Source: Clostridiales bacterium (GTDB taxonomy: Bacteria > Bacillota > Clostridia > Christensenellales > Aristaeellaceae). Taken from it: 33,167 nt of DNA. Positions 546-33,167 of the stretch are shown here, piece by piece. Position numbers and translations under genes: made by a program. The stretch lies in NCBI GenBank assembly GCA_012523405.1, contig JAAYIN010000097.1, positions 1 to 33,167 on the forward strand, written 5' to 3'. Position 1 is the first letter of the stretch, and each line of letters opens with the position of its first letter. The notes below the pieces were generated by a model, which was not told the DNA's origin, made no database searches, and saw only the letters and a list, made by a program, of their open reading frames with translations.

Positions 546-3500
546 TTATAGCGGACCTTCTGCGTTTCTCTGCGTCCAGTCCCTTGTGGTCTGCTGGTCA
601 AGTGTCAATTGCTTGCCTTCAAGCAGCACATACCCAAGATCAAAGTTCACATTCTTGCTCCCGCTTTCCACTGAGAACTCATCGCTTCTAGCCTCAGTGC
701 CATCGCCTGATGTCAAGCAGCTGCTGATCATTCGAAGCTCAGGAATGATCATTGTAATGCCAAGTTCAGGATACGCCTCTGCCTTGAGCACATAGGAGCC
801 AGGGTATACATCATCAAACAAATAGTAGCCGAATTCATTGGTCACCATTTGGTACATGATTTCATCATTTTGCAACAGCGAGATCGTTATGCCCGCGAGC
901 TTTGGTTCTATGCCGTCCACCAGTCCATTCGCATTCTCGTCAAGCCATGCCTGATCACCAATCTTAGCGGGCTTGATATATACGATGTTTTGGCCTAGCA
1001 GATGATCTGCCATCTTCAAGCTGAATGCTTCGCTCATTCCTGCGTCCCCTGTCACCTCCGTGATCACCGATGTTCCCGCCTGATAGTTAGGATCGTCAGG
1101 TCTCACAAACACCATACTGGAGGGAAGTTCTGCTTGCAGGTAATACTCATCCGGCCATAAGCCATCAAAGCGATACGAGCCGTCCTCGCCTGTCTCCACC
1201 GTCTGCAAGGGCGATGTGGAATTCCCTGCAAATAGCTTCACCCATGCGCCTGCAACCGCAGATTTTACATTATTTTCCTCAAACCATAGCTTGCCGCCAA
1301 TGCTTGTGCGGGAAACAATACCGGTCATCAAGCTGGAAACCGCCTGATCCTCAGCCACCTCAATGCCCTTTTGCTCCATATAGGAAGCATTTTGCGCGAA
1401 GGTAGAGGACGCATCGCTAGCAGGCTCTGATTGACTGGGAAGCAAGAAGCGCGCCGTATACTTTCCCGACCGAACATTTGTGAAGGTAAAGCCCTGCTCA
1501 TCTGATGCTGTGCGTTTGACGACAACGCCTGTCGTCTCGTCAATTAGTTCCACAGTGAGCTTGCTTAGCAGCGATTCCTCGCTAGCGCGTACGCCATCCT
1601 TGTTTTCGTCCAGCCATACCACACCTGAAATAGTGCTCGGCTTTACGATGCCAATTTGTTTTTCTTTACGGCTGATGAGTGCTTGCCACGAGCAATCGGT
1701 CGTAACTGATTGCTGCGCTGCCAGTACGATGTTTTCTGTATCGATGCTATGGCTGATGATATATCCATCGGGAAGCTCCACCGATAGCTTGTAGCCTGCG
1801 GGACGTAAGCCCACGATGCTATAGCTGCCATCCGTGCCGCTCACCGCCGTTAGCTCCTCTGCGCTGTCACTGTCAGGTGTCAGCGTGACCGTTACGCCTG
1901 TCATGGTCTTCTCGCCATCATCCAACATGCCATTGGCATTGACGTCACGGAATGCCAATCCGTCAAAGCTGCCAAGCGTCACTGCACCAACCAAATAACA
2001 TTGATACGCTTCGCCCATTTTCACGGTGAAGGGCTTGGTTGTTGACTCAAGACCCTCGCCTTCCAATGTGTTTCCGCCATCAACAACATTTGCCATTACG
2101 GCATGTTGGGGAAGCAGATACGTAAGTGTATATTCCCCGGGCATCACGCCATCGAAGAAATAGCTGCCATCCTCATTGATCTTTGCCGTCAAATCAATCT
2201 CACTATCACTTGACAGCAAGCGAACGCTCGCATTCACATAACCGCCTTCGCCTTCATCCTGCAAGCCATTATCATTGAGATCATCAAAGAATATACCTGT
2301 GAGGGTGGAGGAGGGAAGCATGCCCGCGTTGATATCCTTAATCTCTTGTGCCATGGCGATCTCTATGGTGTCAGTAACGCCATACTCGCCCACAAGCATC
2401 GTTACATAGCTGCCGCCTTTTTCCAACGGACGCAGGCGGGTGAACCCATAGTCCTTCTTGCGCTTGACCTGAATGCTATATTCACCAGGCATAATACCGT
2501 CTAGGGTATAGACACCCTTGGCATTGGTCGTCGCGCTTGTGACAATCCCGCCCGCTTGATCAATCAGCTGTACTTCTACACCTGATATTTTCTTCTCATT
2601 GCCGCCTAGCGAACCATTATAGTCCTTATCCTCAAAAACAGTACCGCTTACGGTTGCACCCAGCGCAACACCGATCACTACATCACAGGATTCGCCGCTC
2701 ACGATGGTCAAAGGTCCTATGACCTGATCTCGGCGATTGCTCTTTTGTTCAAATTGGTTGTATTGACCGGTTGTGTCCTGCGGTACGATGGTGAATATGG
2801 ACTTATCATCAGGTAACAGCGCGCGCAAACGATAATCGCCGCTTCTGAGCGCTTCCACTTTGAAGCTGCCATCCTCGCCCGTTACCGCTTTGCCGGTCAC
2901 TTCGGAAACATTGCCCTTTGTGACCTCAATCTTTATCTTTTCATAAGCTGGTTCGTCCTCATCATAGATGCCATTGTAGTTCACATCCAAGAACGCAATG
3001 CCTTGAATAACGCCATTTTCAATCATACCGATGTACATATCGGTGATGTTTGCAGACTTCTTGAGGGAGTATTCGCGCTGCGTTGTCGAGCCAGAAAAGA
3101 TGCTTCGCAAGTCACCGCCTGTCCTTGAATAACGAGCATACAGCATTGAATCTGGAAGGTCTGCTGTGATGGTATACATATCATCCTGTAGGTTGGAAAA
3201 GCTATAGTTACCCAAGTCATCGCTCAGGGTTTGCAGGTTTGCGCCGGTGCGTTTGCCTGTTAGGTACAGCGTAACCCCTGCAACGCCCGGCTCGCCTTCA
3301 TCGTAAATGCCGTCGTTGTTCATATCCTCAAAGACGATTCCGCCAAATGAGCCCACGGTTTTGGTTCCGATCGATGCCGCGACCTCTTTGCCTTCTTCAA
3401 ATGTAAAGGTCTTGCTGGTTGCTACATCGCCCTCAGCAAATGCGCAGCTATCCCCTGTTTCGGGAGACTCACCGACTGCTGTGAATGCATAACCGCTTGG

Positions 3501-4181
3501 CAATGTCACGCGCAGCGTATGTTTTCCCGCTTGCACCTGCTCGATGTGCGCAACGCCGCTCATATCGGTCACTGCTGATCCAATCACAACATCGCCCGAC
3601 ATCACTTCCACCATTACCTCGCCAACCGCACGGTCTCGCTTTGCCTGTATGCCATCTGCATCATTATCCAAAAATGCGGTAAAAGTAAGCGATGCGGGCT
3701 TAGCAAGTGCAATATCTGCAACATCGGTAAGCTGGTCGCCGATGCTCAGCTTTATGCTTTGGCTGCACATCTGCTGCTCATCATCCGCTTTGTTGGTAGC
3801 TTGTCCCACCGCAGCCACAAAGAACTCTGCTGAATTTGTTCCAGATAGCACGCGATATTCGCCTGCCTCCAGTGCATCAAAAGCATATTTACCATACTTA
3901 TCCGTTGCCATTGTCTCTATTTCTTCCCAGTTGTCATCACTTAGGCGCTCAAGCGTCACGTTTACGCCTGTGATCAGCACCTCATCTGCGTCTCTGAGCA
4001 GATTGGCGTTCTCATCAATAAACGCGCAACCGGAAATGCCCGCCTCATCAATGCTTGACGGAGGGGCAGCGCTTGCCTCGCATCTGGTAAATGGCATGCA
4101 CAGCACACCTAAAATGAGCAAACAAACCATGATTGCTTTCACTATGATCACACTGTTATTTTCTCTTGCGGTGAAGTTCAT
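546..4181 (-). CDS. Secreted SdrD B-like repeat protein, ten repeats, no cell-wall anchor
   Basis: A 1211-residue surface or secreted protein. Residues about 12-37 form a signal peptide (hydrophobic core VIIVKAIMVCLLILGVLCM). Ten tandem beta-sandwich repeats of roughly 115 residues follow. Most open with a Ca-binding-like motif such as DMNNDGIYDEGEP, DVNYNGIYDEDEP or DLNDNGLQDEGE, and then have a GxYxFxxLxxGxYxL strand typical of SdrD B/Cna B-like domains. The motifs begin near residues 57, 173, 287, 400, 519, 635, 747, 859, 969 and 1082. Repeat 9 has lost the acidic loop. The C-terminus ends in AEGPL, with no LPXTG, no membrane helix and no cell-wall-binding repeats. ATG at 4181 is preferred to TTG at 4184 for its spacing from GGAGG/GGGGG upstream. 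The repeats probably act as a stalk or adhesin; the ligand is unknown. Confidence 0.85.
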   Translation of the reverse strand: MNFTARENNSVIIVKAIMVCLLILGVLCMPFTRCEASAAPPSSIDEAGISGCAFIDENANLLRDADEVLITGVNVTLERLSDDNWEEIETMATDKYGKYAFDALEAGEYRVLSGTNSAEFFVAAVGQATNKADDEQQMCSQSIKLSIGDQLTDVADIALAKPASLTFTAFLDNDADGIQAKRDRAVGEVMVEVMSGDVVIGSAVTDMSGVAHIEQVQAGKHTLRVTLPSGYAFTAVGESPETGDSCAFAEGDVATSKTFTFEEGKEVAASIGTKTVGSFGGIVFEDMNNDGIYDEGEPGVAGVTLYLTGKRTGANLQTLSDDLGNYSFSNLQDDMYTITADLPDSMLYARYSRTGGDLRSIFSGSTTQREYSLKKSANITDMYIGMIENGVIQGIAFLDVNYNGIYDEDEPAYEKIKIEVTKGNVSEVTGKAVTGEDGSFKVEALRSGDYRLRALLPDDKSIFTIVPQDTTGQYNQFEQKSNRRDQVIGPLTIVSGESCDVVIGVALGATVSGTVFEDKDYNGSLGGNEKKISGVEVQLIDQAGGIVTSATTNAKGVYTLDGIMPGEYSIQVKRKKDYGFTRLRPLEKGGSYVTMLVGEYGVTDTIEIAMAQEIKDINAGMLPSSTLTGIFFDDLNDNGLQDEGEGGYVNASVRLLSSDSEIDLTAKINEDGSYFFDGVMPGEYTLTYLLPQHAVMANVVDGGNTLEGEGLESTTKPFTVKMGEAYQCYLVGAVTLGSFDGLAFRDVNANGMLDDGEKTMTGVTVTLTPDSDSAEELTAVSGTDGSYSIVGLRPAGYKLSVELPDGYIISHSIDTENIVLAAQQSVTTDCSWQALISRKEKQIGIVKPSTISGVVWLDENKDGVRASEESLLSKLTVELIDETTGVVVKRTASDEQGFTFTNVRSGKYTARFLLPSQSEPASDASSTFAQNASYMEQKGIEVAEDQAVSSLMTGIVSRTSIGGKLWFEENNVKSAVAGAWVKLFAGNSTSPLQTVETGEDGSYRFDGLWPDEYYLQAELPSSMVFVRPDDPNYQAGTSVITEVTGDAGMSEAFSLKMADHLLGQNIVYIKPAKIGDQAWLDENANGLVDGIEPKLAGITISLLQNDEIMYQMVTNEFGYYLFDDVYPGSYVLKAEAYPELGITMIIPELRMISSCLTSGDGTEARSDEFSVESGSKNVNFDLGYVLLEGKQLTLDQQTTRDWTQRNAEGPL

Positions 4182-4353
4182 CAAATGCCCCCGCCTCCGC
4201 TACATTATTCTTGTCTATACTATATAATATACCATTTTACATAGTAAATGATACCCATCGGTTTGTCAATGAATGATGCATGATTGTGACAAGTAGCGAT
4301 CCATAGCGAAGATGAACAAAGAATGAAAAATAACAAACGAAGTTGATGAAGCG

Positions 4354-14405: not shown

Positions 14406-14412
14406 TCACAAG

Positions 14413-14456
14413 CAAATCGAAAACCCCTGCCAAGATAGGCAGGGGTTTTCGATTTG
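14413..14456. terminator. Bidirectional terminator between the PBP gene and the pilus operon
   Basis: A perfect 19-base inverted repeat (14413-14431 and 14438-14456) has a 6-base loop. The GC-rich core (CCCCTGCC) is flanked by A and T runs on both sides, so it can stop transcription from either direction. It ends the pilus operon and the PBP gene. Confidence 0.9.
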
Positions 14457-16328
14457 TCACGGTTCCCATTTTTCAAATAAATAAAAGGTATACAGGCAGA
14501 GTTTGTCCCAGTCTTCAAGCTTCACTCGCAGCAAGCCGGGCTGGATTTGACTGAGAATCCCATCTTTGTCCGTCTTGCAGTAATCATCCTTTAGGAACGG
14601 ATCGAGGATATATACATACGTATCATCCACGGCTGCCAGCGTGACATAATGTCCGCCTCCTGTAAACGGGCTTCGCTTCCCGCCCGTCACCGCCGCCGCC
14701 ATGCCGCCGCGGCGCAGCACACTCACCGCATCCTCCGCTTCTTTGCTCACCATCAATGTGAGCGCATATGCATCGCTCACTCGCTTCATGAATACGGGCT
14801 TTGTGCCATAGGCAGAGGTGCGCGATTTTTCATTCCATTGGTTATTGCCTGTCGCGAAGTTTGCAATGGCAACGGGCAAATAGTTTTGATATTCTGCCGC
14901 CATCCTCAGGGTATGCTGCGGGTGTTTATGATTGCAGAAATACTGGTTCACAGAGCAATTGCAAAAGGTGATCCCTTCTTCTCTGCCCGAGTAATAGGAC
15001 AGCCACCACAGGTTTTCTGCATCCACCAAATTGGCAACCACCATCGCCATGCTCGTAGGTCCGCATCCGCCCGTTCCAAATCGGCGAGACTTTCCGCTGC
15101 CGCGCGATTCGTAGCGCATGGTCGCCCATGTCGGATCATTCTGCGCATAATACTGCATTGCGCCTCTGCCCGGCACATCCACCATGCCGCTTGTACCGCT
15201 GTCCAGCGATGCCTGCATCACAGAGGAGATTTCCGGTGCCTCATAGGCAATGGGACGCATGCGCAAAAACAGGATATAGCGTTCATTGCGATCATCATTG
15301 GTGCAGGTGCAAAGCGCCATTACCTGATCGCCCCACTGGGGCCGCACGGACGACGTAATCAGGGACTGCGCCCCAATGGTTTGCATGAACTGATCAAATT
15401 CGCCTTTGCCCTCAAAGTGCTTTGTATGCCACGAGTCTTTTTCATCAACCGAGGAGCGAATACAGCCAAAGGCCTCCAGCCGATAATCGTAGTACGGTGT
15501 TAACAGATAAAGTGTTTGATGCTCCTCATAATAGGCTTGATCCTGATACTTGGGAATGCTGGCGAACATCGTATCGTCCCTGCGGTTATGCCCATAAACA
15601 TAGGTGACCATATCCGTAAAGTATTCAGAATTTCCGCTGTCCATAAAAATGGCACCATTTCGGTTGGTAGCGCGCGTATACAAACGCGTGAGATAATACT
15701 CGTTGTCCTCGCCCTGTACAATGGGGTAATTGATCTGCGTCCCTTCCCCGAGAATCCACCCGACAACATCCTCATTGATCTCCTGCAGACCCCCGAAATC
15801 AACCACATACCGTGTTTTCTCCTCCACAGCGCCGCCCACCAGCGGCAGGCGGGGAGTTGGCGCGGGCGTAGGGGTTGGGGGCTGGCTAGGGGCTATGGAG
15901 GCGGTTTCTCTTGGGGTAATGTCCGTATGATTTTGCGTGGATTGGGTCGCTATTGATGCACTCAGCGAGGGTAATGCGGCGGTAGGCGGAGGGGTCGGCA
16001 TGGGCGTCACCGTATCAGCGCCTTTCGTCTTTCCCTCCGCCCGCTCGATCATTTCCAAAAGCACTTCATCCTCCTCGACGCTTTCTTCCTCAAGCTCGGC
16101 ATCTGGGGGCAATGTGCTCATCACTTCCTGCGGGACAGGGTTTTGCGCCGGATCGCCTTCATAAACAAAGGACTCAAGCGCATGAAAATCCTCATTCGCC
16201 TGCTCTCGTTCTTTTTTTTCATCAATAAAAAAGGAGACCATCGTGCATGCTGCCGCGAGGCATAACACCACCGCGGCAACAATCAATCTTTCTGCAACGC
16301 TCCAAGGCTTCCGATTCTTCTTACTCAT
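14457..16328 (-). CDS. Class B-like sortase fused to a C39-type cysteine peptidase domain
   Basis: A 623-residue membrane-anchored protein facing outward. One N-terminal helix (about 13-35) is followed by an acidic then Pro/Thr-rich linker (50-165). A sortase domain (about 170-365) has class B-like features: the GWI-x-GTQINYPIVQ-x-DN-x-YYL entry, YVYGHN with catalytic His247, ALCTC with catalytic Cys342, and Arg350. A second domain (about 390-605) is Peptidase_C39_2-like: QNDPTW (Gln396), GGCGPTSMAM (Cys422), GGGHYVTL (His560), LDP (Asp576). Both sets of catalytic residues are intact. A Cys/His-rich loop lies at residues 456-472. The start overlaps the LPQTS pilin stop as ATGA, so translation is probably coupled. 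Sortases of this class usually end after the first domain. The fusion is seen directly; its reaction is not known. Confidence 0.9.
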   Translation of the reverse strand: MSKKNRKPWSVAERLIVAAVVLCLAAACTMVSFFIDEKKEREQANEDFHALESFVYEGDPAQNPVPQEVMSTLPPDAELEEESVEEDEVLLEMIERAEGKTKGADTVTPMPTPPPTAALPSLSASIATQSTQNHTDITPRETASIAPSQPPTPTPAPTPRLPLVGGAVEEKTRYVVDFGGLQEINEDVVGWILGEGTQINYPIVQGEDNEYYLTRLYTRATNRNGAIFMDSGNSEYFTDMVTYVYGHNRRDDTMFASIPKYQDQAYYEEHQTLYLLTPYYDYRLEAFGCIRSSVDEKDSWHTKHFEGKGEFDQFMQTIGAQSLITSSVRPQWGDQVMALCTCTNDDRNERYILFLRMRPIAYEAPEISSVMQASLDSGTSGMVDVPGRGAMQYYAQNDPTWATMRYESRGSGKSRRFGTGGCGPTSMAMVVANLVDAENLWWLSYYSGREEGITFCNCSVNQYFCNHKHPQHTLRMAAEYQNYLPVAIANFATGNNQWNEKSRTSAYGTKPVFMKRVSDAYALTLMVSKEAEDAVSVLRRGGMAAAVTGGKRSPFTGGGHYVTLAAVDDTYVYILDPFLKDDYCKTDKDGILSQIQPGLLRVKLEDWDKLCLYTFYLFEKWEP

Positions 16329-17530
16329 TGGTTTTTACGGCGACGGCGGTATAGCAGCATCGCCAGTATGCATGCCGCTCCCATCAGCACAAATGCAGCC
16401 ACCACATATAGCATCATGTCGCTCTCATCGCTCGTTTGAGGCAACGCACCAAGCGGCGTACCGTAATCATCGTAATAGACCCATTCCTCGTCAACATAGC
16501 GCACGCTGACAGGCACCAAAGGTTGAGGCGAGGGCGAGGGCGTAGGCGGCGGGGTAATAAAGGAGGTAGTAACAGGCGGCGGGGTGATGTTTGGATCAGG
16601 TGTGGGCGTTGCATGGATATTGGTAATGGTGAAACCATTCTTGTCATACTTTGTTTCATACCCGTTTACCCCTACCTCACGCACCAGATAATCATAGCGA
16701 TTGCCGCTGCTATCATAGCGCACCAAATCATAGAACGTGAACTTCCACTCGTTCCCAACTCCTGCCATATCCACCGTCAAATAAGGCGTCGTGTCGTATT
16801 CCAGCGCACTGGACAGCTTCTGATACAGATGGATTACAATGTTCTTGGGGCGCAGTGCATCCGCGTCGCTTGAGTCCTTCCAGCTCTTTGTCACCACCAA
16901 GTTGATATAGGACGGATAGCTTGGCACAACCGGCGGATCAGTCGGAGGCAAGGTGATGAGCGGCGGCGTTGACGGTGCAGGGCTCGGCGTTGGGGTTGGG
17001 GTAGTCTCTAGTTTTGGGAATGCTTCAATCGTTTCTGCCCAGTGAGTGCTTGAGCTGTTCATCACAGGGATCGCCACCAGAAATGGCGCGATGAACTCGA
17101 ACTCGTCTGCCATTCCTTCCGACTTCGTTTGTCGGATATAGTAGATACCATGGGCAAGGCTTGACCAAGTCGCCTGTCCGTTCGCATCCGTGGTCATGCT
17201 TACACCTTCCAAGCTATTTGGTTTGGCAAATACTGCCGCCAGCTTTTCTATGACCGCAGTGCCTTTTTCGATTGTGAAATTCTCAAATGATATGCCCTGC
17301 TGCGTATAGGGCTCGATCGCCTCAAATTCGCCTGTTTGCCCCGACTGCTTTGTGCGTCCAATCTGGTAGACCGTCAGCGTTGCCCCCTCGACCGGCGACC
17401 CTTCGAATTTCAGGCTGACATTCACCATGCCCATTCTCTGCCCTATTGCAATGGCAGGCAAAAGCGCGGCGCAAAGCATCAGCAGGCACAGTCCAATGGT
17501 TAATGCACGTTTCATTTTCACACCACCCAT
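16325..17530 (-). CDS. Minor pilin or pilus base protein with LPQTS sorting signal
   Basis: A 401-residue wall-anchored protein. The signal peptide is followed by a SpaA/Cna B-like domain (about 35-170) and a Pro/Thr-rich linker. A second Cna B domain (about 205-310) starts INLVVTKSWKD and includes YLVREVGVNGYET, whose Glu is the usual isopeptide catalyst. A second Pro-rich linker leads to the C-terminal signal: LPQTS (363-367), a hydrophobic helix, then RRRRKNQ. LPQTS replaces the usual LPXTG and is closer to class B sortase motifs such as NPQTN. The start ATG at 17530 uses AGAAGG, which lies inside the stop region of the preceding sortase gene. A later ATG at 17515 is possible. The gene overlaps the downstream sortase-C39 gene by 4 bases. 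Confidence 0.87.
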   Translation of the reverse strand: MGGVKMKRALTIGLCLLMLCAALLPAIAIGQRMGMVNVSLKFEGSPVEGATLTVYQIGRTKQSGQTGEFEAIEPYTQQGISFENFTIEKGTAVIEKLAAVFAKPNSLEGVSMTTDANGQATWSSLAHGIYYIRQTKSEGMADEFEFIAPFLVAIPVMNSSSTHWAETIEAFPKLETTPTPTPSPAPSTPPLITLPPTDPPVVPSYPSYINLVVTKSWKDSSDADALRPKNIVIHLYQKLSSALEYDTTPYLTVDMAGVGNEWKFTFYDLVRYDSSGNRYDYLVREVGVNGYETKYDKNGFTITNIHATPTPDPNITPPPVTTSFITPPPTPSPSPQPLVPVSVRYVDEEWVYYDDYGTPLGALPQTSDESDMMLYVVAAFVLMGAACILAMLLYRRRRKNQ

Positions 17531-18433: not shown

Positions 18434-19984
18434 TTATACGTTTTTCTTGCGATTCCTAGAAATAAGGAGAATGACTACACCAGCCATAATGACAATACCA
18501 ACGATTGTGAAAATCGTAGTACCAATTCCGCCCGTGGGGGGCAGCGCAATACCCTTTTTGTTTTCCACTTCGAGATGATAATACTGGGAACCATTCTTAA
18601 GTAACTCACTACTTCCATCTTGAACGATTTCGATTTTGGTATAACCGTCGACAGCATTATATCCACTGGGTGCATTGATTTCCTTAAGGTAGTATATGCC
18701 CTCGTCTAAGCCTGTGATATACAGCAGACCATTTGCATCAACAACAAGGTCTTTGCTTCCAGCTATACTTAGCTTATATCTATTTATGGTATTTCTTTTT
18801 GGTTCAAGATCCAAAATGGCAATGTCCCGAGAATCGGTTGTACTCTTAAATAATAACGGTTCGTTTATTATTTTTCCATCTTTGTCTGTAGCGTATAGCT
18901 CGAACGTCGCACCTGGAAGCAGTTCTTTTGTTTTTGTTCCATCGCCAGCCATATGGTATTTGACCAGCTCAAAACCAAACGTATAGACAGGAACCGTCTT
19001 TTTTTCTCCCTCTGTTACTGTAGTAGGCGTGGTTGAGTAATACAATTGTGCAGCGTTGTTGTTTGCATCCTTTACCATTGAAACCTCATCATTAATCAGC
19101 ACATCGTAATTAACCGTGATTTTTCTACTTCCGCTATCCGCAAAAGGTAGGGTTTCGTAGTTGAATTCAATAGTAAATGTAGGACCACTTTCCTCACCTT
19201 TAACAACTCTGTAGTGATCTAGATTAGTTAGTGGTTCATCCCCAAGCTTAATAGTAAAGTTGTCACTAATCGGCTCCTTAATTATCAATTCAAGACCAGC
19301 TGATAAGGTATCAATGATATTGAATGTGACATTTTCGTAGTCCGAAGAGTACACAGGCACGGTTGTTGTGATTTCAAAAGGAACAATACTGCCGACACCG
19401 ACACCATTATCTACAATCTCGTCTTTTTCAGAGATCGTTTTTTCGATAATTGGGCTTTCTGATTTCAATTCAAAGTCGTTACAGATCAGTTCCCCGCTAA
19501 CAGGCTTCACTGATAAACCAACCGGTGAGTATATAGTAGCTGTGCCTTCAATTATGAGTATGTATTCGCCCATAGCTAGTTCCAGCTCCACGGCTGCCGG
19601 TTTTTCCGCATCGTTATACACCTGAGCATATGCTTTGTAATCTTCTCCAAAGGTTTTATTATTTTTCGCTATTAAGAACTCGATATAAAAAGCTTCCAAA
19701 GCTTCTTCGCTAAGAGTTTCAGAAAACTCATGTGCCAGACCATACTTGGGTACAGCCCAAGCTTCTATTTCCGTTGCCCACTTGACACCCGGGTTCACAA
19801 CCATATGCAAATCTTCACTATACGTGACGTCCATAATCTTATATGCATAAGCGGTTGCCTTATCGTCAATTTGGGGGATTTGCACTGTCATCGTAGAATC
19901 TTTAGTAATCTCCGCCAACGCCCCGCCGCAGATAGACAGCAGCATAACCAGTACCAATAGCAAGCTTGCTAGTTTCTTCATCAT
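18434..19984 (-). CDS. Major pilin, SpaA-type, LPPTG-anchored
   Basis: A 516-residue shaft pilin (residue numbers here count from the ATG at 19990). A signal peptide ends near GGALA. An N-terminal domain reaches about residue 170 and is followed by FELKSESP, the place of the pilin-motif Lys (Lys176 is the candidate linker). A middle isopeptide domain starts PIIEKTISEKD and ends near NNNAAQLYYS. A C-terminal Cna B/SpaA domain starts FGFELVKYH and carries the E-box YYLKEINAPSGYN (Glu437). The sorting signal is LPPTG (483-487), a hydrophobic helix, then RNRKKNV. ATG at 19984 is preferred because AAAGGA is 6-7 bases upstream; ATG at 19990 is too close to it. It is followed by the hairpin and the class C sortase, the usual pilin-sortase order. 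Confidence 0.93.
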   Translation of the reverse strand: MMKKLASLLLVLVMLLSICGGALAEITKDSTMTVQIPQIDDKATAYAYKIMDVTYSEDLHMVVNPGVKWATEIEAWAVPKYGLAHEFSETLSEEALEAFYIEFLIAKNNKTFGEDYKAYAQVYNDAEKPAAVELELAMGEYILIIEGTATIYSPVGLSVKPVSGELICNDFELKSESPIIEKTISEKDEIVDNGVGVGSIVPFEITTTVPVYSSDYENVTFNIIDTLSAGLELIIKEPISDNFTIKLGDEPLTNLDHYRVVKGEESGPTFTIEFNYETLPFADSGSRKITVNYDVLINDEVSMVKDANNNAAQLYYSTTPTTVTEGEKKTVPVYTFGFELVKYHMAGDGTKTKELLPGATFELYATDKDGKIINEPLLFKSTTDSRDIAILDLEPKRNTINRYKLSIAGSKDLVVDANGLLYITGLDEGIYYLKEINAPSGYNAVDGYTKIEIVQDGSSELLKNGSQYYHLEVENKKGIALPPTGGIGTTIFTIVGIVIMAGVVILLISRNRKKNV

Positions 19985-20081
19985 TTCCATTCCTTTCTTT
20001 TGTAAACAAAGTTCTTGGGTTCATCCGTTTCATCTGTTATTTCGCCTATATGGGATCGGAAACGAAGTGTGACATTTCGTT

Positions 20082-23000
20082 TCATACCACCATCCTTTTT
20101 TTACGCCAGCTCCATGCGAGCATGAGTCCAGCTATCAAAGAAAGTAATAATCCACAGGCTGTAAACCAATGAGTACCCATTCCTCCTGTTACAGGCAGCT
20201 CAATGATCTTTTGATTGGCGAGGGTGAATGCATCTTTCTCGCCTTGGAGCGTGATGCTTCCGCCCTCAGGGGCGATCTGCGTGGCAATCGCAGTGAGCGT
20301 TCCATCCTCATCGGACTTGACAATCTCGATTTCCCATTGATTTCCGCTGCCCAGATATCCGCTAGGTGCCTTGGTTTCCTCAAGCAGGTATTTGCCTTCT
20401 GCCAGTCCCTCATATACGAACCTCGTGGGGTCTGTTGATATGTTTGCTATGGGAACCTCAGAGCCTATCGGCGTAAGCGTGAACTCTGCTCCCGTTAGCG
20501 AAATGGTTGCTCCTTCAGGATCTTTGGTTTTTTTAACCTTTGTAAACGCGAAATCCATGACGGTTTGATTGATGGAAACACCGACACGCGGCGGAGAGGT
20601 CAGCTCCTTGTTTTGATTTCCTTTTTCATCTGCCGTATTCCAATAATATCCAAAGTTATTCCATGCGACCAAGCCCGCCTTTGCATTTTCGCCTAATGTA
20701 GCATTAAAGGTGATCATAAGCGTCTCGCCCTGTTTTAGCGGGTATGTGCTCATTAGCCTAAATGACCTCGCGCCATCAAAATATGTGCTGCTCCACTCCC
20801 CTGCATCCGCCTCCAAGTACTCCTCTTGGTCAAAACCATCCGCTTTGATCGAGTAGTACATCTGATACTGAGTGACTTCAAGTTTGGCGGACGTTCCATC
20901 CATGTGCGACACATAGACAGCAGGCATAGTTTTGAATTGGACATCAAAGGTACTGCCGCGTTCAGATGTCACATGCACTGGGTTTTTATCATCACTATGC
21001 GGTAGATTATCAATGATGGTGATGGTTGGCACCGTACTTTCGCCTACATTTTGCAGGTATAGCTTGTACTCCACTTGATTGGCTGCCGGATCTACAAGGA
21101 TGTAATTCGTCCCAGCAGCGCTGGCTTGATCACTGGACGCTTTATTGGAAGCATTGTTGTATTCCGAAACTTCCTTCCACGAAGACATCCCTTCTCCGCT
21201 GAATACATTGATGGCATCCTTGGCCGTGAGCGTGTTATACATATCCTCAGCGATATCGCCGTCCGCGCCCGGTTCACCCTTGGAATACTGCGCAAAGGAG
21301 CTTACCGTTTTCACAACAGCCGTATTCAGATGTCTTCCCGCATAATAATTGTTATCAACACGTTTGGTTCTCACTGTTAATGTAGCCGTTTTCCCGGGCT
21401 GAAGTGTGATTGGATGACCTTGGGCGCATGTCAGCAAATCAAACTCATACGAGCGCGCCGCCACAGCACCGTCGTCCCCCATCAGCTCGGTTGCGGTCGG
21501 AATATCAAGTTCGTACGTCTCCCCGTCTTCAACCTTCAGAATCGCGCTGAAAACCTCGTAAGGATGATCCATGATATCTGTAATACTATCCAGCTCGATT
21601 GGGTTTAGACCATCATTTGACACAACCACATCCCATTCATGATGGTCATCGGGCTTGATAATCGTCCTCGGGGTTACGTCATACCAGTTGTTACCATATC
21701 CGCTCGGTGAATACTTCTTAATGTTCTTGATGATACCCGGATAGATTTCACCCGCTTTGGTTGGGTAAATCGTAACCGATGATGTGAAGGTGGTTTGATC
21801 ATTCTCTTCGTCATACCAATTTGTACAATTCCCATCATTGGGATTACCGCCGCTGCTGGTCTTTGACGTGACATCCAAATCGCCCTGCGACGCAGCACCG
21901 TCAACCGTTACCTTCATCTGATTGACTAATGGATTGACAAGGCCGGTGTCTATTTTGCAGAGAATTGGGAAGGCAAAACCACTCACGACGTCTTTTCCAT
22001 TTGCTTGCGTAACCGCTGGTATGACCAGACCCTTCTCGCTATTTTTCAATGTAAATATCAAAGGCTCTTCACTTTCTCTAGCGACGGTGACACCAGTGAT
22101 CAGATTAAATGTCACATTGCTATTGTTGACATCGACATAATTTTTCCCCCAATAATTTGCCGAATGTGAATACCCCCAATTAGTAGTCCACTCATCGCCT
22201 GTCAGCAAACCTAAATATGTTACCCCAGGCGGCAATACATCCTCCACTTGACTGATGGTCATGTCGCTCTCTCCGGTATTAAACACAGAGAGGTAGTAAA
22301 CCACACAACTTGTATCCATATAGTGGCTCAGGCTCAGTCCCTTATCCTGTGCCTCTCCAACGCCATCACTATCACAACCCGCTAAATGCCTTACCCCTTT
22401 TTGGATATAGAGCTTCGCCTTGTTCTCTGGTAGAACGATGTCATGCGTGACCGATTTTTCCTCATTGCCATAAACCATCGTGTTCTTTACATGCGTAACA
22501 TTATTGCGTTTTAATGCCTCACAGTATGCATGCCATCTTGCTCCGCTTGGATACTTGACGGTGATATAATGGGTATAGGTAGTCTTTGCAGGTACTGTCA
22601 TATGTTCAAATGGAAATTTAAACTTATCTATTATATTGATCTGATCAAACAGACTCATCTGCCCTGTCTGTGTAATCACAGCATCGTCGGAAGTCCCAGT
22701 GGGAGCTTTGTATTCAAACGCTCCATAGGGATTGGGCAGAACATCGATAATCTTTCCCGTCTCCACAGCTAAGGACTTTTCGGTGTTGTTTGTGAAGGTG
22801 AGTTCATAGGTTACCTCTGCCCCTTCTGATAGCGACAGTGAATCCAGTCTTTTCTCGTCATCCGTTCCTTTTCCGACAATGATCTTTTTGTCGAAATCAA
22901 CTCTCGTATCTGCAAATTTAATCTCGTCTTTGACTTTTTTATCGGTATTAGATTTAACTTCATTCAATTTATCAACGGGCACGGCCTCCACTAACGCGTA

Positions 23001-26000
23001 GACAATCCATTCAACCTCATAGCCATGTTCCAATGTTCCGATTGGCAATATCATAGAAGGCGTGCGATCATCATTGTGGATGCTGCCGATTGCCGTAGCA
23101 TTGATCTGGGAAGACGGTGACTCGATAGTTCTCACGCAATAACCGATTGAATACGCATCATCATTCTGAAGTCTATTCCCCGCCTCATCAGAAAACACAA
23201 GACCTGCCGGAAGCGTATCAGTAAGCTGCAAGTCATTCAGCGGCTCTGCTGGTTTACCATTATGCTTTGCGACAATGGTAAACTTAATGACATCTCCCAC
23301 TCGGTAAGCTTTGTCCTCATGCTCTTTTGTGAGCGTAATATTAGGCTCTTCAAATGTCACATTCACGTTGACTTTCTTATCCTTATAGTGAAGCCAGTTG
23401 GTGAGTATCGAATTTGGGCGGTGTTTGAATGCTGCATTTAGCTTCGCCTTCAAAATGATGGTTACTAATTCTCCCGGTTCCACCTTAGGAATAGACCATT
23501 GAATTGTTGTTACATCATTCGCGCTTGTATAATCCACATCCACCGTACAGCTAGCATTCGTAGGTGTACCTACGGTTGGTTTTGCACCATTGACGCCAAG
23601 GAAGTATTGGTAAGGCACATTGGTCATATCCCGCACTACTTCATTGCCGTTTTGGTCAAGCATGATAAGACCCGCAGGGAGAATATCTTTTAAGCTTGCA
23701 TTTTTAATTGCCGCATAACCCACATTCTCCAACGTCAATGTATACGTAACCGTATCGTGACCTGCGCTCATCGTAGCTTGATCAACAGATTTACCGATAT
23801 CTCCCACAGGTGCTTCAACCTTCACTTCACCACTGTCACCTTCGTAATCATGTGTAGTTGATTCCCACTCGTTTATGATTGTTGCGCCTTCCCTCTGGTC
23901 GTTGTGTCTGACCATCGCATCAAAATTAAATGTGATTTGCTCCTCTTTTCCAATCTTGACAATCGTCCATGTGATGGTCGTTTCTTCATTTTCAACCGTA
24001 ACTTTCACATGGACATTTACTGAATTTCCAGCCTTATCTATTGCTGTAATGGTCGTTTCATACCCCGTAAAGCCCGACTCGTGCGGATCAATCTCTACCT
24101 GTTCACCATGATCGTCTGTGTAGACATAATGCAAACCATAGGGCAGTTTATCCTTGAAAATGACATTCTCCGCATCAACTCCGCCAATGTTTGCAGCAGA
24201 CAATGTGTATGTAATAATTTCGCCGTCTTTGTATGGTGCGTCGCCTTCTTTTTGAGATGGTACTTTTGTCAGCTTGAGGTTAGGTTTACGGATTTCGACG
24301 CTTTCTACAGCCTCTCCGCCTTTATTCGAAGTGAGCTTGTTTTTAATGATCGGATTATCTGCATTAGGTTCTTTATTCACAACCGTCTCCGTCGTGATAT
24401 GGACTTTTCCATTGGCGGGTATTTCATTTGAAAACTTCCATGTCAGTTTTGTTTCACCCGCTGCTCCTTGCGAGAGCCTCAAGGTACAGGTCAGCTGCGC
24501 ACCTGATTCATCGGTATAGATGTATTCCATCGTTTTCTCAGGAGTATGTGTCTGCCCTTCATAGTAGAACGTTAATTGGGATGGCAGCGTATCATACAAC
24601 TCCAGATTCTGTATGGATGTGGTTTCATTGTTGGTGAAGCAAAGATCAAACCATATATGATCACCCTTTTGATAATGCTTGTTTTCGTCAGCAACCGCCA
24701 CTCCCTCTTGGGTGACGTTCCACTTTTCGAGCAATATATCGGGCTTCTTTACAATTATCGTATCGCTTGCCGCATCGTTATCGTTTGTTCTTGCATAGTT
24801 ATATAGATGTCTCGTGTTCTTGTCATTCCAATACTCCGTTAAGGGGATTTCTTCTATTCTTACCGGTATCTCAATATTCATTGACCCCTTACCAGGAATC
24901 GTACCAACATCCCAAGTCAGCGTCTTACCATCAATTTTGCAGGTATAGCCGCTGATTTGATGGGTTCCATTTGCAAGCGGATTTCCATCTGCATCAACAA
25001 AGTGCAAATAGGATGGCAGGTTGTCCGTAATGACAACATTCGTCGCTGCAACGTCCTTTATATTGGATACAACCAACTGATACCTGACAATATCGCCTGC
25101 GAGGAAGTGATCTACGTCTACGTCCTTTTTCGTATGCGTTTTGCTCAACGTTAGATCTGTTCTACTATAGTAAACGGTAACTGTGTTACTGCGTTGGGTT
25201 TCGAAGCATGCTGTGTTCTCAAAGTAAGTAATGTCATTGGATATATTCGCTCTTGTTGTCACCTCAAACGTTTTGGTGCTCGTACCATCAACCTGTATGG
25301 TTTCTTGAGGCCATGTAATTTTGGTAACATTATTATCGATCGTCCAGATGACGTCTGCGTCTGTAAACGCTTTTTTCTGTTGATCCGTCAACATCAAACC
25401 GATGGGCAGCGTATCCGTAACAGAACCCGTTTCCGCTTTAGCACCTTTGTTTTTCACGTGCACTGTATAGGTGAAGCTCTCGCCCGCGACTATCTTTAAC
25501 TTCTCTGCCGCTTTCGTCACTTCAATCACTGAGTCTGCCTTTGGAATCACAACCTTTACATTAGCATCAGAACCTATCGGCGGGTCAGCATTATATGGAA
25601 CAGCTACAAAGTCCACTTCATTGTTGATGAACACATCGCTGCCGCTATTAAAGTCATCTGCCACAACCAAAGCCTCTGCATTTAGCTCCGCAGACAGCGC
25701 GACATGCTCCATTTCCGAATCATTCTTAGCATCCGCATCGCGCAATAATTGATTTAGCATTTTGATTTGATAGGTAATTTGATTGGACGAATTTTTTGTC
25801 ACGCTGATCACTTCAGCATTCGCAGGTAGATTAGTAAATTCGAAGATGGTGGTTGCCCCGAGCATTAGTTTATTGCCTTGAAAAACCGCCCCCGCTGGGA
25901 AGGTAACCCCATCAGGTAATGTCAGGGTATCGGTGACGGTAACGTAGTCAGTCCACACATCTCCGGTATTTCCGGATGAATTATTTTTGGTATTTGCAGA

Positions 26001-26705
26001 GATAGAATATACTATTTTCCCGCTTAAAGACGGAATGCCAGAAGGTCTTTGGAACTGAAGATCGTTGGTTTGCTCTTTATGAACCGCATCCCACGCGAAC
26101 GTTCCAATCCACTCCGCTTTCGCCTCTTCTCCCGCTCTGTCATTTGGTCCAGCATCAACGATGCTCGGTTCTAATACCAAGCTCTGATATGTCCCTGACA
26201 CGCCGTTATTGACATAAAACGGTATCCCAATCGTCTTTACATCGCCCGGCTCTCTTGTAAACTCAAGATAATATTCACCGTTTTCAATAACCATGTAGAT
26301 GTCTATACCGTTATCGTTAAATATCTTCTGCCCAGTTGCCGTTGGCGTTGTAAACTTGGTTGAAAAATGTATCTCAGGATCAAAACCATCGAGCTTTACT
26401 CGAAAGGTACGCGGCTCCATGCCAATCGTAGCATCTACGTCTACCGTCACCCTAAACATCATGAGATCCCCAACCTCACCCTTGACTGAGCCAACATAGG
26501 TTTGTACAATCGCTTCACTTACCTGCACAGAAATCGTCGCTACAGAATCATCGGAACTTTCCTGTATACTTTCCAGGCTCTGTGTGCCGACAAAAAACGG
26601 TTCAGAGGAAGAAATGTCCTCTGCTATCACCATTTCGCAACATGGCACAGTGATCATCAGCACCACCAGCGCCATGGACACTAACTTATTGATAAATTTT
26701 TTCAT
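20082..26705 (-). CDS. Giant DUF11-repeat adhesin, LPVTG-anchored, probable pilus tip or ancillary subunit
   Basis: A 2207-residue wall-anchored adhesin. A signal peptide (about 1-29) is followed by a non-repetitive N-terminal region (30-390), the likely binding end. Then come about ten DUF11/isopeptide-type beta-sandwich repeats starting near residues 395, 517, 657, 811, 972, 1123, 1290, 1432, 1658 and 1870. Many share the pattern TYTLTLxNxG...DxLPxGL, for example VTDTLPIGLML, ITDNLPSYLHF, LKDILPAGLIM. Repeats 7-10 are more divergent. A Cna B domain (about 2052-2165) has LLEETKAPSGYLG. The sorting signal is LPVTG (2170-2174), a helix, then WRKKRMVV. The ATG at 26705 follows AGGAGG by 7 bases. 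It lies between the PT-rich protein and the major pilin. The ligand cannot be read from the sequence. Confidence 0.92.
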   Translation of the reverse strand: MKKFINKLVSMALVVLMITVPCCEMVIAEDISSSEPFFVGTQSLESIQESSDDSVATISVQVSEAIVQTYVGSVKGEVGDLMMFRVTVDVDATIGMEPRTFRVKLDGFDPEIHFSTKFTTPTATGQKIFNDNGIDIYMVIENGEYYLEFTREPGDVKTIGIPFYVNNGVSGTYQSLVLEPSIVDAGPNDRAGEEAKAEWIGTFAWDAVHKEQTNDLQFQRPSGIPSLSGKIVYSISANTKNNSSGNTGDVWTDYVTVTDTLTLPDGVTFPAGAVFQGNKLMLGATTIFEFTNLPANAEVISVTKNSSNQITYQIKMLNQLLRDADAKNDSEMEHVALSAELNAEALVVADDFNSGSDVFINNEVDFVAVPYNADPPIGSDANVKVVIPKADSVIEVTKAAEKLKIVAGESFTYTVHVKNKGAKAETGSVTDTLPIGLMLTDQQKKAFTDADVIWTIDNNVTKITWPQETIQVDGTSTKTFEVTTRANISNDITYFENTACFETQRSNTVTVYYSRTDLTLSKTHTKKDVDVDHFLAGDIVRYQLVVSNIKDVAATNVVITDNLPSYLHFVDADGNPLANGTHQISGYTCKIDGKTLTWDVGTIPGKGSMNIEIPVRIEEIPLTEYWNDKNTRHLYNYARTNDNDAASDTIIVKKPDILLEKWNVTQEGVAVADENKHYQKGDHIWFDLCFTNNETTSIQNLELYDTLPSQLTFYYEGQTHTPEKTMEYIYTDESGAQLTCTLRLSQGAAGETKLTWKFSNEIPANGKVHITTETVVNKEPNADNPIIKNKLTSNKGGEAVESVEIRKPNLKLTKVPSQKEGDAPYKDGEIITYTLSAANIGGVDAENVIFKDKLPYGLHYVYTDDHGEQVEIDPHESGFTGYETTITAIDKAGNSVNVHVKVTVENEETTITWTIVKIGKEEQITFNFDAMVRHNDQREGATIINEWESTTHDYEGDSGEVKVEAPVGDIGKSVDQATMSAGHDTVTYTLTLENVGYAAIKNASLKDILPAGLIMLDQNGNEVVRDMTNVPYQYFLGVNGAKPTVGTPTNASCTVDVDYTSANDVTTIQWSIPKVEPGELVTIILKAKLNAAFKHRPNSILTNWLHYKDKKVNVNVTFEEPNITLTKEHEDKAYRVGDVIKFTIVAKHNGKPAEPLNDLQLTDTLPAGLVFSDEAGNRLQNDDAYSIGYCVRTIESPSSQINATAIGSIHNDDRTPSMILPIGTLEHGYEVEWIVYALVEAVPVDKLNEVKSNTDKKVKDEIKFADTRVDFDKKIIVGKGTDDEKRLDSLSLSEGAEVTYELTFTNNTEKSLAVETGKIIDVLPNPYGAFEYKAPTGTSDDAVITQTGQMSLFDQINIIDKFKFPFEHMTVPAKTTYTHYITVKYPSGARWHAYCEALKRNNVTHVKNTMVYGNEEKSVTHDIVLPENKAKLYIQKGVRHLAGCDSDGVGEAQDKGLSLSHYMDTSCVVYYLSVFNTGESDMTISQVEDVLPPGVTYLGLLTGDEWTTNWGYSHSANYWGKNYVDVNNSNVTFNLITGVTVARESEEPLIFTLKNSEKGLVIPAVTQANGKDVVSGFAFPILCKIDTGLVNPLVNQMKVTVDGAASQGDLDVTSKTSSGGNPNDGNCTNWYDEENDQTTFTSSVTIYPTKAGEIYPGIIKNIKKYSPSGYGNNWYDVTPRTIIKPDDHHEWDVVVSNDGLNPIELDSITDIMDHPYEVFSAILKVEDGETYELDIPTATELMGDDGAVAARSYEFDLLTCAQGHPITLQPGKTATLTVRTKRVDNNYYAGRHLNTAVVKTVSSFAQYSKGEPGADGDIAEDMYNTLTAKDAINVFSGEGMSSWKEVSEYNNASNKASSDQASAAGTNYILVDPAANQVEYKLYLQNVGESTVPTITIIDNLPHSDDKNPVHVTSERGSTFDVQFKTMPAVYVSHMDGTSAKLEVTQYQMYYSIKADGFDQEEYLEADAGEWSSTYFDGARSFRLMSTYPLKQGETLMITFNATLGENAKAGLVAWNNFGYYWNTADEKGNQNKELTSPPRVGVSINQTVMDFAFTKVKKTKDPEGATISLTGAEFTLTPIGSEVPIANISTDPTRFVYEGLAEGKYLLEETKAPSGYLGSGNQWEIEIVKSDEDGTLTAIATQIAPEGGSITLQGEKDAFTLANQKIIELPVTGGMGTHWFTACGLLLSLIAGLMLAWSWRKKRMVV

Positions 26706-26726: not shown

Positions 26727-27953
26727 CTATTGAAGGATCACACGCCAAAAGCGCATGTCATTTTCCTCAGTTAACATAAAAGTGCATGAGCTATCTGTCC
26801 CGCCATCTACATCATTCCAGCTTTCAGGATGCTCGGCGCTTGCCCACTGCCATTGGTAGGCGAAGGCATCGCCTTCGCTCTGGACAACGGCACTCAGCAC
26901 GACTGTATCGCCAAGCTGATATATGATGCCCTCTTGCTGGGGCTGGATGATAATGGCGATCATTGGCTGCAAATCGGTGGGCTCAGAAGTAGGATCGGGG
27001 GTTGGGAGCTCGGTTGGTTCGGGCGTTGGCTTTGCATATGCCGCATAAGCCGCTTCAAACACCGGATATCCGCGCTCCGTCCATCTTTCGTTTCTATATT
27101 GATCCCGAATGTCATCTCCAAATGAAAATGCACCTTCAAAGCAATCTGCATCCATATAGCCTTCCAGAACGCCCTCTCCATCAGAGAAGAAAACCTTTAT
27201 TGCATCCGTCCGTCCGTCACGCTCTGCATATTCAGTTGCTAACAAGAAGCTTCCCTTTGCGCTGAGCGTACCCATTTGTTTTTTGAGATTCTTTGCAGCA
27301 TAAACAGGCATATGACCATGAGCTGTCACAATATATACAAAGCTGCCCGATTGCAAAGCTTCTTTGATTGTCGACGGTATGATCGGCTCTTCCGTCGGAA
27401 CTTCCGTAGGCTCAACCGTTGGCGTTTCGGTTGGTTCTTCGGTTGGCACCTCAGTCGGTTCTGGTGTTGGGGCTTCCGTTGGCACCTCAGTCGGCTCGGG
27501 TGTCAGTTCTTCGGTTGGTACCTCAGTCGGCTCGGGTGTCGGTTCTTCGGTTGGTACCTCAGTCGGCTCGGGTGTTGGAGCTTCGGTTGGCACCGCAGTC
27601 GGTTCTGGTGTTGGGGCTTCCGTTGGTGCTTCGGTTGGTTCTGGTGTTGGGGCTTCCGTTGGTGCTTCGGTCGGTTCTGGTGTCGGGGCTTCCGTTGGCA
27701 CCTCAGTCGGTTCTGGTGTCGGGGCTTCCGTTGGCTCTGACTCATCAGCTGGTTGAGATACGGACGTAGAGTTTTCTTGGTCGCAAAGCATTTGCTCACT
27801 GCTCTGAGAGATGATCTGAATCACCGTTGATTGCGATTCTTCATTTCCCATATCATGTGCAGCAGCCGAAACCATATTTGTACTGCTCATAAGTACCAAC
27901 ATCGCTAAACCTACACAGATCACTGCGCGCACTAGAGTCGCTCTATTTCTCAT
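26727..27953 (-). CDS. Secreted PT-repeat protein with SH3-like and Ig-like domains, first gene of the pilus operon
   Basis: A 408-residue secreted protein (residue numbers count from the ATG at 27959). A signal peptide (VRAVICVGLAMLVLMSS) leads to a short Ser/Gln-rich stretch, then about 115 residues of PTEAPTPEP-type repeats (75-192). An SH3-like domain (about 198-275) contains PVYAAKNLKKQMGTLSAKG and DAIKVFFSDGEG. A second PT-rich linker precedes an Ig-like domain (about 335-410) with YQWQWASAEHPESWNDV and FWRVILQ. The Ig domain stops at the point where a last strand would usually follow, so it may be slightly truncated. There is no sorting signal. ATG at 27953 has the best spacing from AGGAGG. 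The stop is only 21 bases from the adhesin start, so the two are cotranscribed. The role is unknown. Confidence 0.85.
   Translation of the reverse strand: MRNRATLVRAVICVGLAMLVLMSSTNMVSAAAHDMGNEESQSTVIQIISQSSEQMLCDQENSTSVSQPADESEPTEAPTPEPTEVPTEAPTPEPTEAPTEAPTPEPTEAPTEAPTPEPTAVPTEAPTPEPTEVPTEEPTPEPTEVPTEELTPEPTEVPTEAPTPEPTEVPTEEPTETPTVEPTEVPTEEPIIPSTIKEALQSGSFVYIVTAHGHMPVYAAKNLKKQMGTLSAKGSFLLATEYAERDGRTDAIKVFFSDGEGVLEGYMDADCFEGAFSFGDDIRDQYRNERWTERGYPVFEAAYAAYAKPTPEPTELPTPDPTSEPTDLQPMIAIIIQPQQEGIIYQLGDTVVLSAVVQSEGDAFAYQWQWASAEHPESWNDVDGGTDSSCTFMLTEENDMRFWRVILQ
27384..27737 (-). repeat. Tandem 36-base repeats encoding Pro/Thr/Glu-rich linker
   Basis: About nine to ten imperfect 36-base units encode variants of EAPTPEPTEVPT. 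Near-identical units sit side by side, so copy number is likely to vary between strains by slippage. The product is an extended, probably glycosylated or protease-tolerant linker. Confidence 0.85.
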
Positions 27954-28145
27954 TCTCATAACCTCCTGATAACTAATCGATTCGAAAGCCGCACCATTTT
28001 GATTGTTCGTACTTTTCTTGTTCCTTGATCATCAACCACTTCGCGGTATGCCGCAAAATCACCGACACGATTCTCCGCTGGTTTGTACTCCATTTTATGT
28101 ATATCATGAAATAACGCTGGATGCAGCTTGCACATTTTCAATCTC
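27954..28145 (-). other. Long 5' leader of the pilus operon
   Basis: This is the region between the proposed promoter and the first pilus gene, about 190 bases. A small in-frame ORF on the minus strand (ATG at 28094, residues MEYKPAENRVGDF...) ends with a stop that overlaps the ATG at 27959. It has no ribosome binding site and is not called as a gene, but a translated leader is possible. No riboswitch was recognised. Confidence 0.35.
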
Positions 28146-32661: not shown

Positions 32662-32663
32662 TT

Positions 32664-33167
32664 TTATTGCCTCCCCTCAATCTTTTCAAATTTCCAATTA
32701 GGCACCTTGCAAACAGGGCAAATCTCCGGTAAGGTGTCCCCTATGTAAATAAAGCCGCAGATGGTGCAGACATAAACGCCGGTATTCTCCAGCATTGCGT
32801 CGCCTTCTTTTTGATACCTGTTTATAATAGATTTCAAAATTCGAGTAACTTTTTCGCTCCATACCAAAGCGCGGAGCGCGCCTCTATCCTTGACATCAGA
32901 TGCCACGGCATTGGTATTCGGAAAACCCTCTGCAAGATCTTTCTCAATCAACTCAAGCAACTGAGCGAATTGCGGACCTTCAGCCGGCGCAGATATTGAT
33001 TTAAAATAACCGGCCAGTTCATTAAATAGAGCTGCTTCTTCAGGCTTGTACTGTTTTTCGCATCCCCGCGCAAGATTCGTGCAAAGCGCACTTACCTCTA
33101 AGGGAGACAGCTCCTTCATATCTGTAGATGACTCAATTACAGATACAGATACCTGCTCCTTTTGGGG
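32664..33167 (-). CDS. Rubredoxin-domain protein, 5' end beyond the window
   Basis: At least 151 residues. A helical N-terminal region (ELSPLEVSALCTNLARGCEK) is followed by a C-terminal rubredoxin-like ribbon with YVCTICGFIYIGDTLPEICP and CKVPNWKFEKI. It probably passes electrons to, or senses redox state with, the fused rubrerythrin gene that starts 2 bases after its stop. The frame is open to the window edge, and the ATG at 33119 has no ribosome binding site, so the true start may lie further right. The family outside the ribbon is not recognised. Confidence 0.8.
   Translation of the reverse strand, partial: PQKEQVSVSVIESSTDMKELSPLEVSALCTNLARGCEKQYKPEEAALFNELAGYFKSISAPAEGPQFAQLLELIEKDLAEGFPNTNAVASDVKDRGALRALVWSEKVTRILKSIINRYQKEGDAMLENTGVYVCTICGFIYIGDTLPEICPVCKVPNWKFEKIEGRQ

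Follow-up and report, generated by a model that had tools for sequence, protein, structure and literature searches.

A class B sortase fused to a C39-type cysteine peptidase domain at the end of a pilus operon in a gut Clostridia bacterium

Introduction

The sorting motif of class B sortases is NPQTN. To our knowledge, the coupling of cell-wall opening to the anchoring of surface proteins is little understood.

In the pilus locus of C. perfringens VR-10B, a class B sortase may anchor the putative base pilin, and a C39 domain is not mentioned in the available part of that report (PMC8088525). For the class B sortase of B. anthracis, residues beyond the pentapeptide are described as critical for activity in the accessible portion of a second study (PMC11987632). 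Members of the Peptidase_C39_2 family (PF13529) are single-domain proteins in the available sections of a classification of papain-like enzymes (PMC10318531). PF13529 also stands on the phage-lysin-associated domain list of a mining study, as given in an excerpt of it (PMC10541714), which is a weak hint at wall peptides as substrates.

Here we describe a protein of a gut Clostridia bacterium in which a class B sortase and a C39-type domain share one chain (SrtB-C39). The gene lies in a 33,167-nt stretch of DNA, referred to as the window. The sortase half shares with the class B sortases of S. aureus, B. anthracis, L. monocytogenes, C. perfringens and C. difficile (SrtB) a family-model score above the cut-off, the His, Cys and Arg residues and the predicted fold, and a Thr before the Cys is common to it and to the known enzymes (PDB 1ng5, 2oqw, 5jcv, 5b23, 4ux7). 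Unlike these, it is followed by a second catalytic domain, it has natural relatives without the sortase His and Cys, and the signal linked to it, LPQTS preceded by a conserved element of 15 residues, differs from NPQTN. The C39 half has the same Gln-Cys-His-Asp order as Peptidase_C39_2 proteins such as the putative C39-like peptidase 3erv. Unlike the described members of that family, it is fused to a sortase and carries a CxC-x6-C-x3-H loop. As at the VR-10B locus, a pilus locus is combined with a class B sortase, but the window has a class C sortase too. An NF033902 major pilin and an NF033745 class C sortase are shared with SpaH/EbpB-type pili; in contrast to those, the window operon ends with the class B sortase fused to C39. 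In the literature searched, with subscription papers and preprints outside its scope, we found no description of the sortase-C39 architecture or of natural pseudosortases; the inactive sortase in the available part of PMC3516528 is a laboratory mutant.

Results

Domain architecture and active sites

The fusion protein is encoded by an open frame of 623 aa (Table 1). A sequence-only reading of the window had placed it at 14457-15821, an interval that lies within the frame but covers residues 170-623 only. The single N-terminal helix and Pro-rich linker of that reading were borne out: the structural model has a helix at residues 11-52, followed by a Pro/Thr-rich spacer to about residue 165, the sortase domain (170-352) and the C39_2-like domain (383-623). 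The sortase half matched the NCBIfam class B sortase model TIGR03064 over residues 170-352 (175.6 bits, cut-off 153.75, E 9.5e-52). The C39 half matched Pfam PF13529 (Peptidase_C39_2) over residues 392-577 (32 bits, cut-off 24, E 2.1e-7). Both scores exceed the curated cut-offs, in agreement with the earlier claim that the two domain types lie on one chain. The two complete active sites of that claim, H247/C342/R350 and Q396/C422/H560/D576, were also found, all seven residues being present in alignment columns that are conserved among relatives.

In the whole-chain model (mean pLDDT 78.3), a long helix at the N-terminus leads into a spacer of low confidence, and the two domains that follow are better predicted. 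The best 19 PDB matches of this model were class B sortases (1ng5_A, E 2.1e-21), and the best 50 were all sortases, which makes this search uninformative for the C39 half. That half was modelled from 65 aligned sequences (pLDDT 96.2, pTM 0.93). Its best 50 Foldseek matches were mainly papain-like and C39 structures, all weak and with one row at E <= 0.001; they included PaJOS (E 9.8e-4), 3erv (E 2.2e-3) and the PCAT peptidase (E 4.8e-3). The sequence-only reading had allowed that the C39-like part might not score as a C39 fold; the profile score and these matches, weak as they are, speak for the fold. In the model, C422 is at a helix start, H560 at a strand start and D576 after a strand, giving the papain order Gln-Cys-His-Asp. 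PF13529 matched 62 of 65 C39 domains at E <= 0.01. At the same threshold PF03412, the model of the double-glycine leader peptidase C39, gave no match to the window C39 half and matched 9 of the 65 relatives. The ABC-transporter fusion of those peptidases is likewise absent from the window protein, the partner here being a sortase. By profile, catalytic residues and predicted fold, the sortase half is a class B sortase and the C39 half belongs to Peptidase_C39_2.

The C39 half also carries a metal-site-like loop which, judging from its pattern of Cys and His residues, probably binds Zn(II). The pattern C-x-[CH]-x5-7-[CH]-x3-18-H was found in 59 of 67 C39 domains, with His as the third ligand in five. 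The ligands were wholly or mostly gone together in the sister pair G119/G120 (loci L050 and L117), where the C39 catalytic residues are kept, and in three distant stand-alone proteins (L152-L154). Partial loss was seen in L140, L150 and L151. Other genera of the family commonly have stand-alone C39 relatives; Q, C, H and D were intact in all 38 that were examined, a choice among the matches listed. Stand-alone genes with the loop (L042, L043, L141 and others) often adjoin a yebC-like gene; as a clue to a partner gene, these recurrent neighbours were uninformative.

Table 1. Features of the SrtB-C39 locus in the window.
Feature	Position	Strand	Remarks
SrtB-C39 fusion gene	14457..16328	-	623 aa; helix, spacer, class B sortase, C39_2-like domain
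Class B sortase half	15273..15819	-	residues 170-352; H247, C342, R350 intact
C39-like half	14460..15182	-	residues 383-623; Q396, C422, H560, D576 intact
Metal-site-like loop C456-x-C458-x6-C465-x3-H469	14922..14963	-	sequence pattern; putative zinc site
410-aa protein, PT disordered repeats	26727..27959	-	first gene of run; putative operon member by its 21-nt gap
2207-aa DUF11-repeat surface protein, LPVTG	20082..26705	-	possible tip protein
SpaH/EbpB-type major pilin, 518 aa, LPPTG	18434..19990	-	NF033902, 116.3 bits vs cut-off 95
Class C (pilus polymerase type) sortase, 273 aa	17535..18356	-	NF033745, 246.3 bits vs cut-off 160
Cna_B / pilin D1 protein, 401 aa, LPQTS	16325..17530	-	probable base pilin
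Extended sorting signal of Cna_B protein	16328..16492	-	DEEWVYYDDYGTPLG-ALPQTSDES, hydrophobic stretch, basic tail
Hairpin, terminator-like operon end	14406..14459	.	-35.7 kcal/mol, z -11.0

Distribution of the fusion

A survey of 308 genomes from one Clostridia family found, among the matches listed, 29 fused proteins in 20 genomes and four genera. They come from 14 of the 17 genomes of the window's genus, from G018, from four genomes of a second genus and from G140. The window's own genome encodes three sortase-C39 fusions. Since the window belongs to a draft assembly of 130 contigs, of which it forms one, a frameshift, a misassembly or a chance joining of two genes had to be considered, as the sequence-only reading had itself pointed out. 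The reading frame runs uninterrupted across the sortase/C39 junction in each of the 29 fused proteins among the matches listed, from the 20 genomes and four genera. Such recurrence leaves an artefact with practically no probability, and the fusion of a sortase and a C39 domain on one chain is real. The search for the architecture in genomes suggested by that reading thus found that it recurs, with a pilus operon as the window gene's neighbourhood.

The fused-locus set comprised loci over 4500 bases and four named ones; G120 (L117) was added later and identical cores were merged. The G140 fusion is cut by the contig start and has Asp at the Cys position of its sortase half; it was left out of the counts of 14/14 sortases and of the sortase tree. 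In G018 (L031, 7606-9543), one stop lies within the C39 half and the frame continues beyond it, as in a pseudogene or an assembly error; the C39 piece beyond this stop was left out of the trees and residue counts.

A scan of named genomes gave 21 loci, 19 covering both halves, in Clostridia-type metagenome-assembled genomes. Seven of the 21 are labelled as coming from the hindgut of ruminants, and one as Candidatus Limiplasma stercoravium. Outside the family, no fusion was among the matches listed when genomes were drawn from the order (396, C39 half only), the class (391) and the phylum (398), one wider-taxon draw scoring at most three candidates per genome and another using E 1e-55. Within the family, two further genomes with matches extending beyond the sortase half, G302 and G313, proved to have plain sortases when their sequences were fetched. 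A search for a mobile origin found no relative in viral contigs and, for the C39 half, none in plasmids.

The pilus operon

SrtB-C39 is the last of six same-strand genes (Table 1), with gaps of 21, 91, 77, 4 and -4 nt; in the final overlap, an ATGA, the stop of the Cna_B/pilin D1 gene overlaps the SrtB-C39 start by 4 nt. The strong hairpin sits between SrtB-C39 and a convergent penicillin-binding protein gene. A major pilin, a class C sortase and LPXTG-type accessory pilins occur together here, as is characteristic of SpaA/EbpB-type pilus loci. By analogy with known pili, the likely roles are base pilin for the 401-aa Cna_B protein, polymerase for the class C sortase and wall anchor for SrtB-C39. 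The linked pilin scored above the cut-off of the general LPXTG model TIGR01167 (17.5 vs 15.9 bits) and below that of TIGR03063, the sortase B sorting domain (14.7 vs 18.15 bits). The latter result bears on the substrate and not on the membership of SrtB-C39 in the class B sortases.

Two other regions of the minus strand were noted outside the pilus operon. One encodes a 1212-aa surface-type protein with ten SdrD_B-type repeats (546-4184). The other holds two adjacent rubrerythrin-type genes (31684-33119), one with 4Fe-4S domains.

Reciprocal loss of the two active sites

Fourteen of the 28 complete sortase halves retain the catalytic His, Cys and Arg (sortase-live). His and Cys are gone from the other 14 (sortase-dead), 12 of which keep the Arg. 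C39 Q, C, H and D are kept in 14/14 sortase-dead fusions. Over all 29 fusions, 26 retain the C39 Cys and three have Ser in its place (codon AGC in G016, AGT in G014 and AGC in G015), and none has both sites broken. Within the sortase-live set, C39 is thus changed by Cys to Ser in three of 14 and by the stop of G018 in a fourth; these are four of the five clade-1 proteins, whereas Q, C, H and D are kept in all nine clade-2 proteins. The reciprocal loss suggests that the two halves have separate jobs, and the Ser replacements and the stop indicate that a live sortase can do without C39 catalysis beside it. One live copy is present in each of the 14 genomes that carry a sortase-live fusion, and seven of these genomes also hold one or two sortase-dead copies.

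The half that has lost its site diverges faster at the sequence level. Over the 91 pairs of the sortase-dead set, mean identity is 31.4% for the sortase vs 45.7% for C39. For the Ser-bearing proteins compared with clade 2, the corresponding values are 43.5% vs 34.5% (G016), 42.0% vs 33.9% (G014) and 43.5% vs 40.1% (G015). The window protein, with both sites intact, gives 46.2% vs 46.5%.

The sortase-dead proteins also differ outside the active site. The spacer is 109-312 aa long in the 13 sortase-live proteins measured (that of G120 is cut) vs 2-43 aa in all 14 sortase-dead ones. The N-terminus is a hydrophobic helix in the live set and signal-peptide-like in the dead set, anchors and signal peptides being called by eye on hydrophobicity alone. 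Among the 51 positions that are conserved across the live set, F178, W191, Y212, G225, G246, T277, P278, F287 and W300 are kept in 13-14 of 14 dead sortases, and Y201, L216, N222, G232, H247, M254, K303, C342 and T343 in 0-1. We considered the dead sortases as receptors for sorting signals and rejected this, because several live-conserved positions near H247 and C342 and on the N200-Y201 strand, which we take to include groove-lining residues of the sortase half, are lost. As scaffold positions are kept while these surroundings are lost, a scaffold role is the likelier one.

The sequence-only reading had proposed that the C39 domain hydrolyses failed sortase acyl-enzymes. Its site is intact in 14/14 sortase-dead fusions and in 38/38 stand-alone relatives, and such hydrolysis therefore cannot be its general job.

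An extended sorting signal linked to the sortase site

An LPXTG-type gene lies directly upstream of the fusion gene in all 11 sortase-live loci with upstream sequence vs 0 of 14 sortase-dead loci. The scan used a regular expression, and 1.2 to 11.4 kb was seen upstream of the 14 dead loci; the sole match there, a 66-aa frame 8.9 kb off (L058), was taken as chance. Ten of the 11 linked proteins end in DGEWxYIDDYGxPLG-xxPxTGDE, with variations, followed by a hydrophobic stretch and basic residues. The pentapeptide lacks its Pro in G015 and G018, where the preceding element is kept. In G009 (L035, up to 8217), the adjoining LPXTG-type protein ends in an aberrant IPDTRDKQ, and a complete copy of the signal is found on the same contig, about 9 kb further upstream. 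The sequence DGEWYYIDEYG resembles choline-binding repeats; that identity was dropped, no such Pfam match being found.

A profile of ten tails gave 18 strong matches in 13 of the 308 genomes. Twelve of these are among the 14 genomes that carry a sortase-live fusion, and one is among the 294 others. In the two misses, G119 and G120, no more than 1.1 kb of sequence precedes the fusion gene, and in the one extra genome, G116 (66% complete), the tail is 93 bases from the contig end. In the window's genus, the signal was found in 9/9 genomes with a live fusion vs 0/8 without, and the profile search there dropped from E 4.3e-23 to 1.1e-4 at the next match. It is missing from all five genomes of the genus whose only fusions are sortase-dead and C39-live, indicating that its presence goes with the sortase site rather than the C39 site. 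Profile rows came from ten of the 13 signal-bearing genomes; G009, G011 and G116 contributed none, nor did five further copies in G002, G006, G009 and G015. Fisher tests gave p = 9.6e-19 (308 genomes) and 4.1e-5 (genus), values that ignore relatedness, and with shared profile rows and related genomes the association is weaker than they imply. The Pro loss in G015 and G018 and the G009 neighbour without the signal are odd for a tight enzyme-substrate pair. The need of the B. anthracis enzyme for residues beyond the pentapeptide, as reported in the available part of PMC11987632, fits an extended signal.

Another proposal of the sequence-only reading was that the C39 domain trims sorting signals. 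As a general job this is disfavoured by the five signal-free, sortase-dead-only genomes, a verdict on the family that does not extend to the window's own protein.

Proposed roles of the two halves

We give somewhat better than an even chance to a reading in which a wall-anchoring sortase for a dedicated extended signal and an independent envelope-directed cysteine hydrolase share one chain. The membrane-tethered class B sortase would attach dedicated surface proteins to peptidoglycan, in the window the upstream Cna_B base-pilin-like protein, by recognising DGEWxYIDDYGxPLG and then xPxTGDE. The C39 half would be a separate papain-fold cysteine hydrolase that cuts a cell-envelope peptide near the membrane and does not serve the sortase chemistry. 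The stem or cross-link peptides of peptidoglycan, of which the stem peptides were already a proposed target in the sequence-only reading, are its most likely target, although we put this at a little under even; a surface or secreted protein is a possible target instead. The paralogues that lost the sortase site and the long spacer, and probably the membrane anchor too, would be secreted pseudosortase-peptidases in which C39 is kept. The three pilus-linked relatives with Ser for the C39 Cys would be sortases with a C39-fold appendage.

In a tentative extension, which we regard as possible but well short of probable, SrtB-C39 is a single-chain wall-insertion machine. C39 would open stem peptides beside the site of base-pilin delivery, making acceptors or room. 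Duplication, death of the sortase and loss of anchor and spacer would later have yielded a secreted wall peptidase, with the sortase fold as its scaffold.

The C39 half might instead process the sortase's own substrate, cutting in or near DGEWxYIDDYGxPLG before, during or after anchoring and so maturing or shedding the pilus. This is suggested by the presence of both halves on one chain, by the adjoining substrate gene and by conservation of the element before the pentapeptide in 10/11 linked proteins. We consider it unlikely, however: the signal is missing from the five genomes of the genus whose only fusions are C39-live and sortase-dead, the C39 domain occurs alone too (38 examined), and the element is kept in G014, G015 and G016 despite their C39 Ser. 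Those same replacements, the stop in G018, which brings the total to 4/5 clade-1 proteins, and the faster C39 divergence in G014 and G016 would fit a C39 half that is drifting towards a catalytically idle structural or binding module in the pilus-linked proteins. The window C39 site is complete and not accelerated, and all four residues are kept in 9/9 clade-2 proteins, which makes such drift quite improbable as an account of the C39 half.

Enzymes with papain-like folds can make amide bonds as well as break them, and phytochelatin synthase and CtaG act by acyl transfer. Acyl-enzyme structures of phytochelatin synthase, and CtaG, are among the Foldseek matches of the C39 half, consistent with a ligase or transpeptidase through which the wall or pilus gains a peptide or has one exchanged. 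These matches are weak and mixed with proteases, though, and the gene neighbourhood suggests no acceptor, so that we give a bond-forming C39 half very little credence. The family comprises a natural series, from proteins with both sites live to others with a live sortase or a live C39 half alone, and a dedicated extended signal, which make the role of each half testable by comparison of these proteins. It also supplies sortase-fold proteins that lack the sortase His and Cys, a kind that we did not find described in the literature searched.

Number of losses and an older locus

In the sortase tree, the 28 fused halves lie on one side of a branch and 11 stand-alone rows, including one gene fetched twice, on the other (98/97), making a single fusion event likely. 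On the C39 tree two label changes are required, although a test did not reject a single origin (p-AU 0.356). The sortase-dead proteins group together in the sortase tree (98/93); in the C39 tree they do not, but their monophyly is not rejected there either (p-AU 0.219). For the loss of the sortase site, the sortase tree points to one event, and there are hints of several in the C39 tree and in synteny. The window protein is sister to G014+G016 in both trees, so the Cys to Ser change appears to have arisen separately in G015 and in G014+G016.

At many loci, including L027 (11009-13351), L034 (6530-8842) and L039 (6388-8802), the fusion gene is followed by a P-type (E1-E2) ATPase gene, and a glutamine synthetase gene is often next. 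We know of no functional link between the fusion, the ATPase and glutamine synthetase. The ATPase gene lies 7-436 nt after seven live and six dead copies, and its presence beside both suggests that the ATPase locus may be the fusion's old home.
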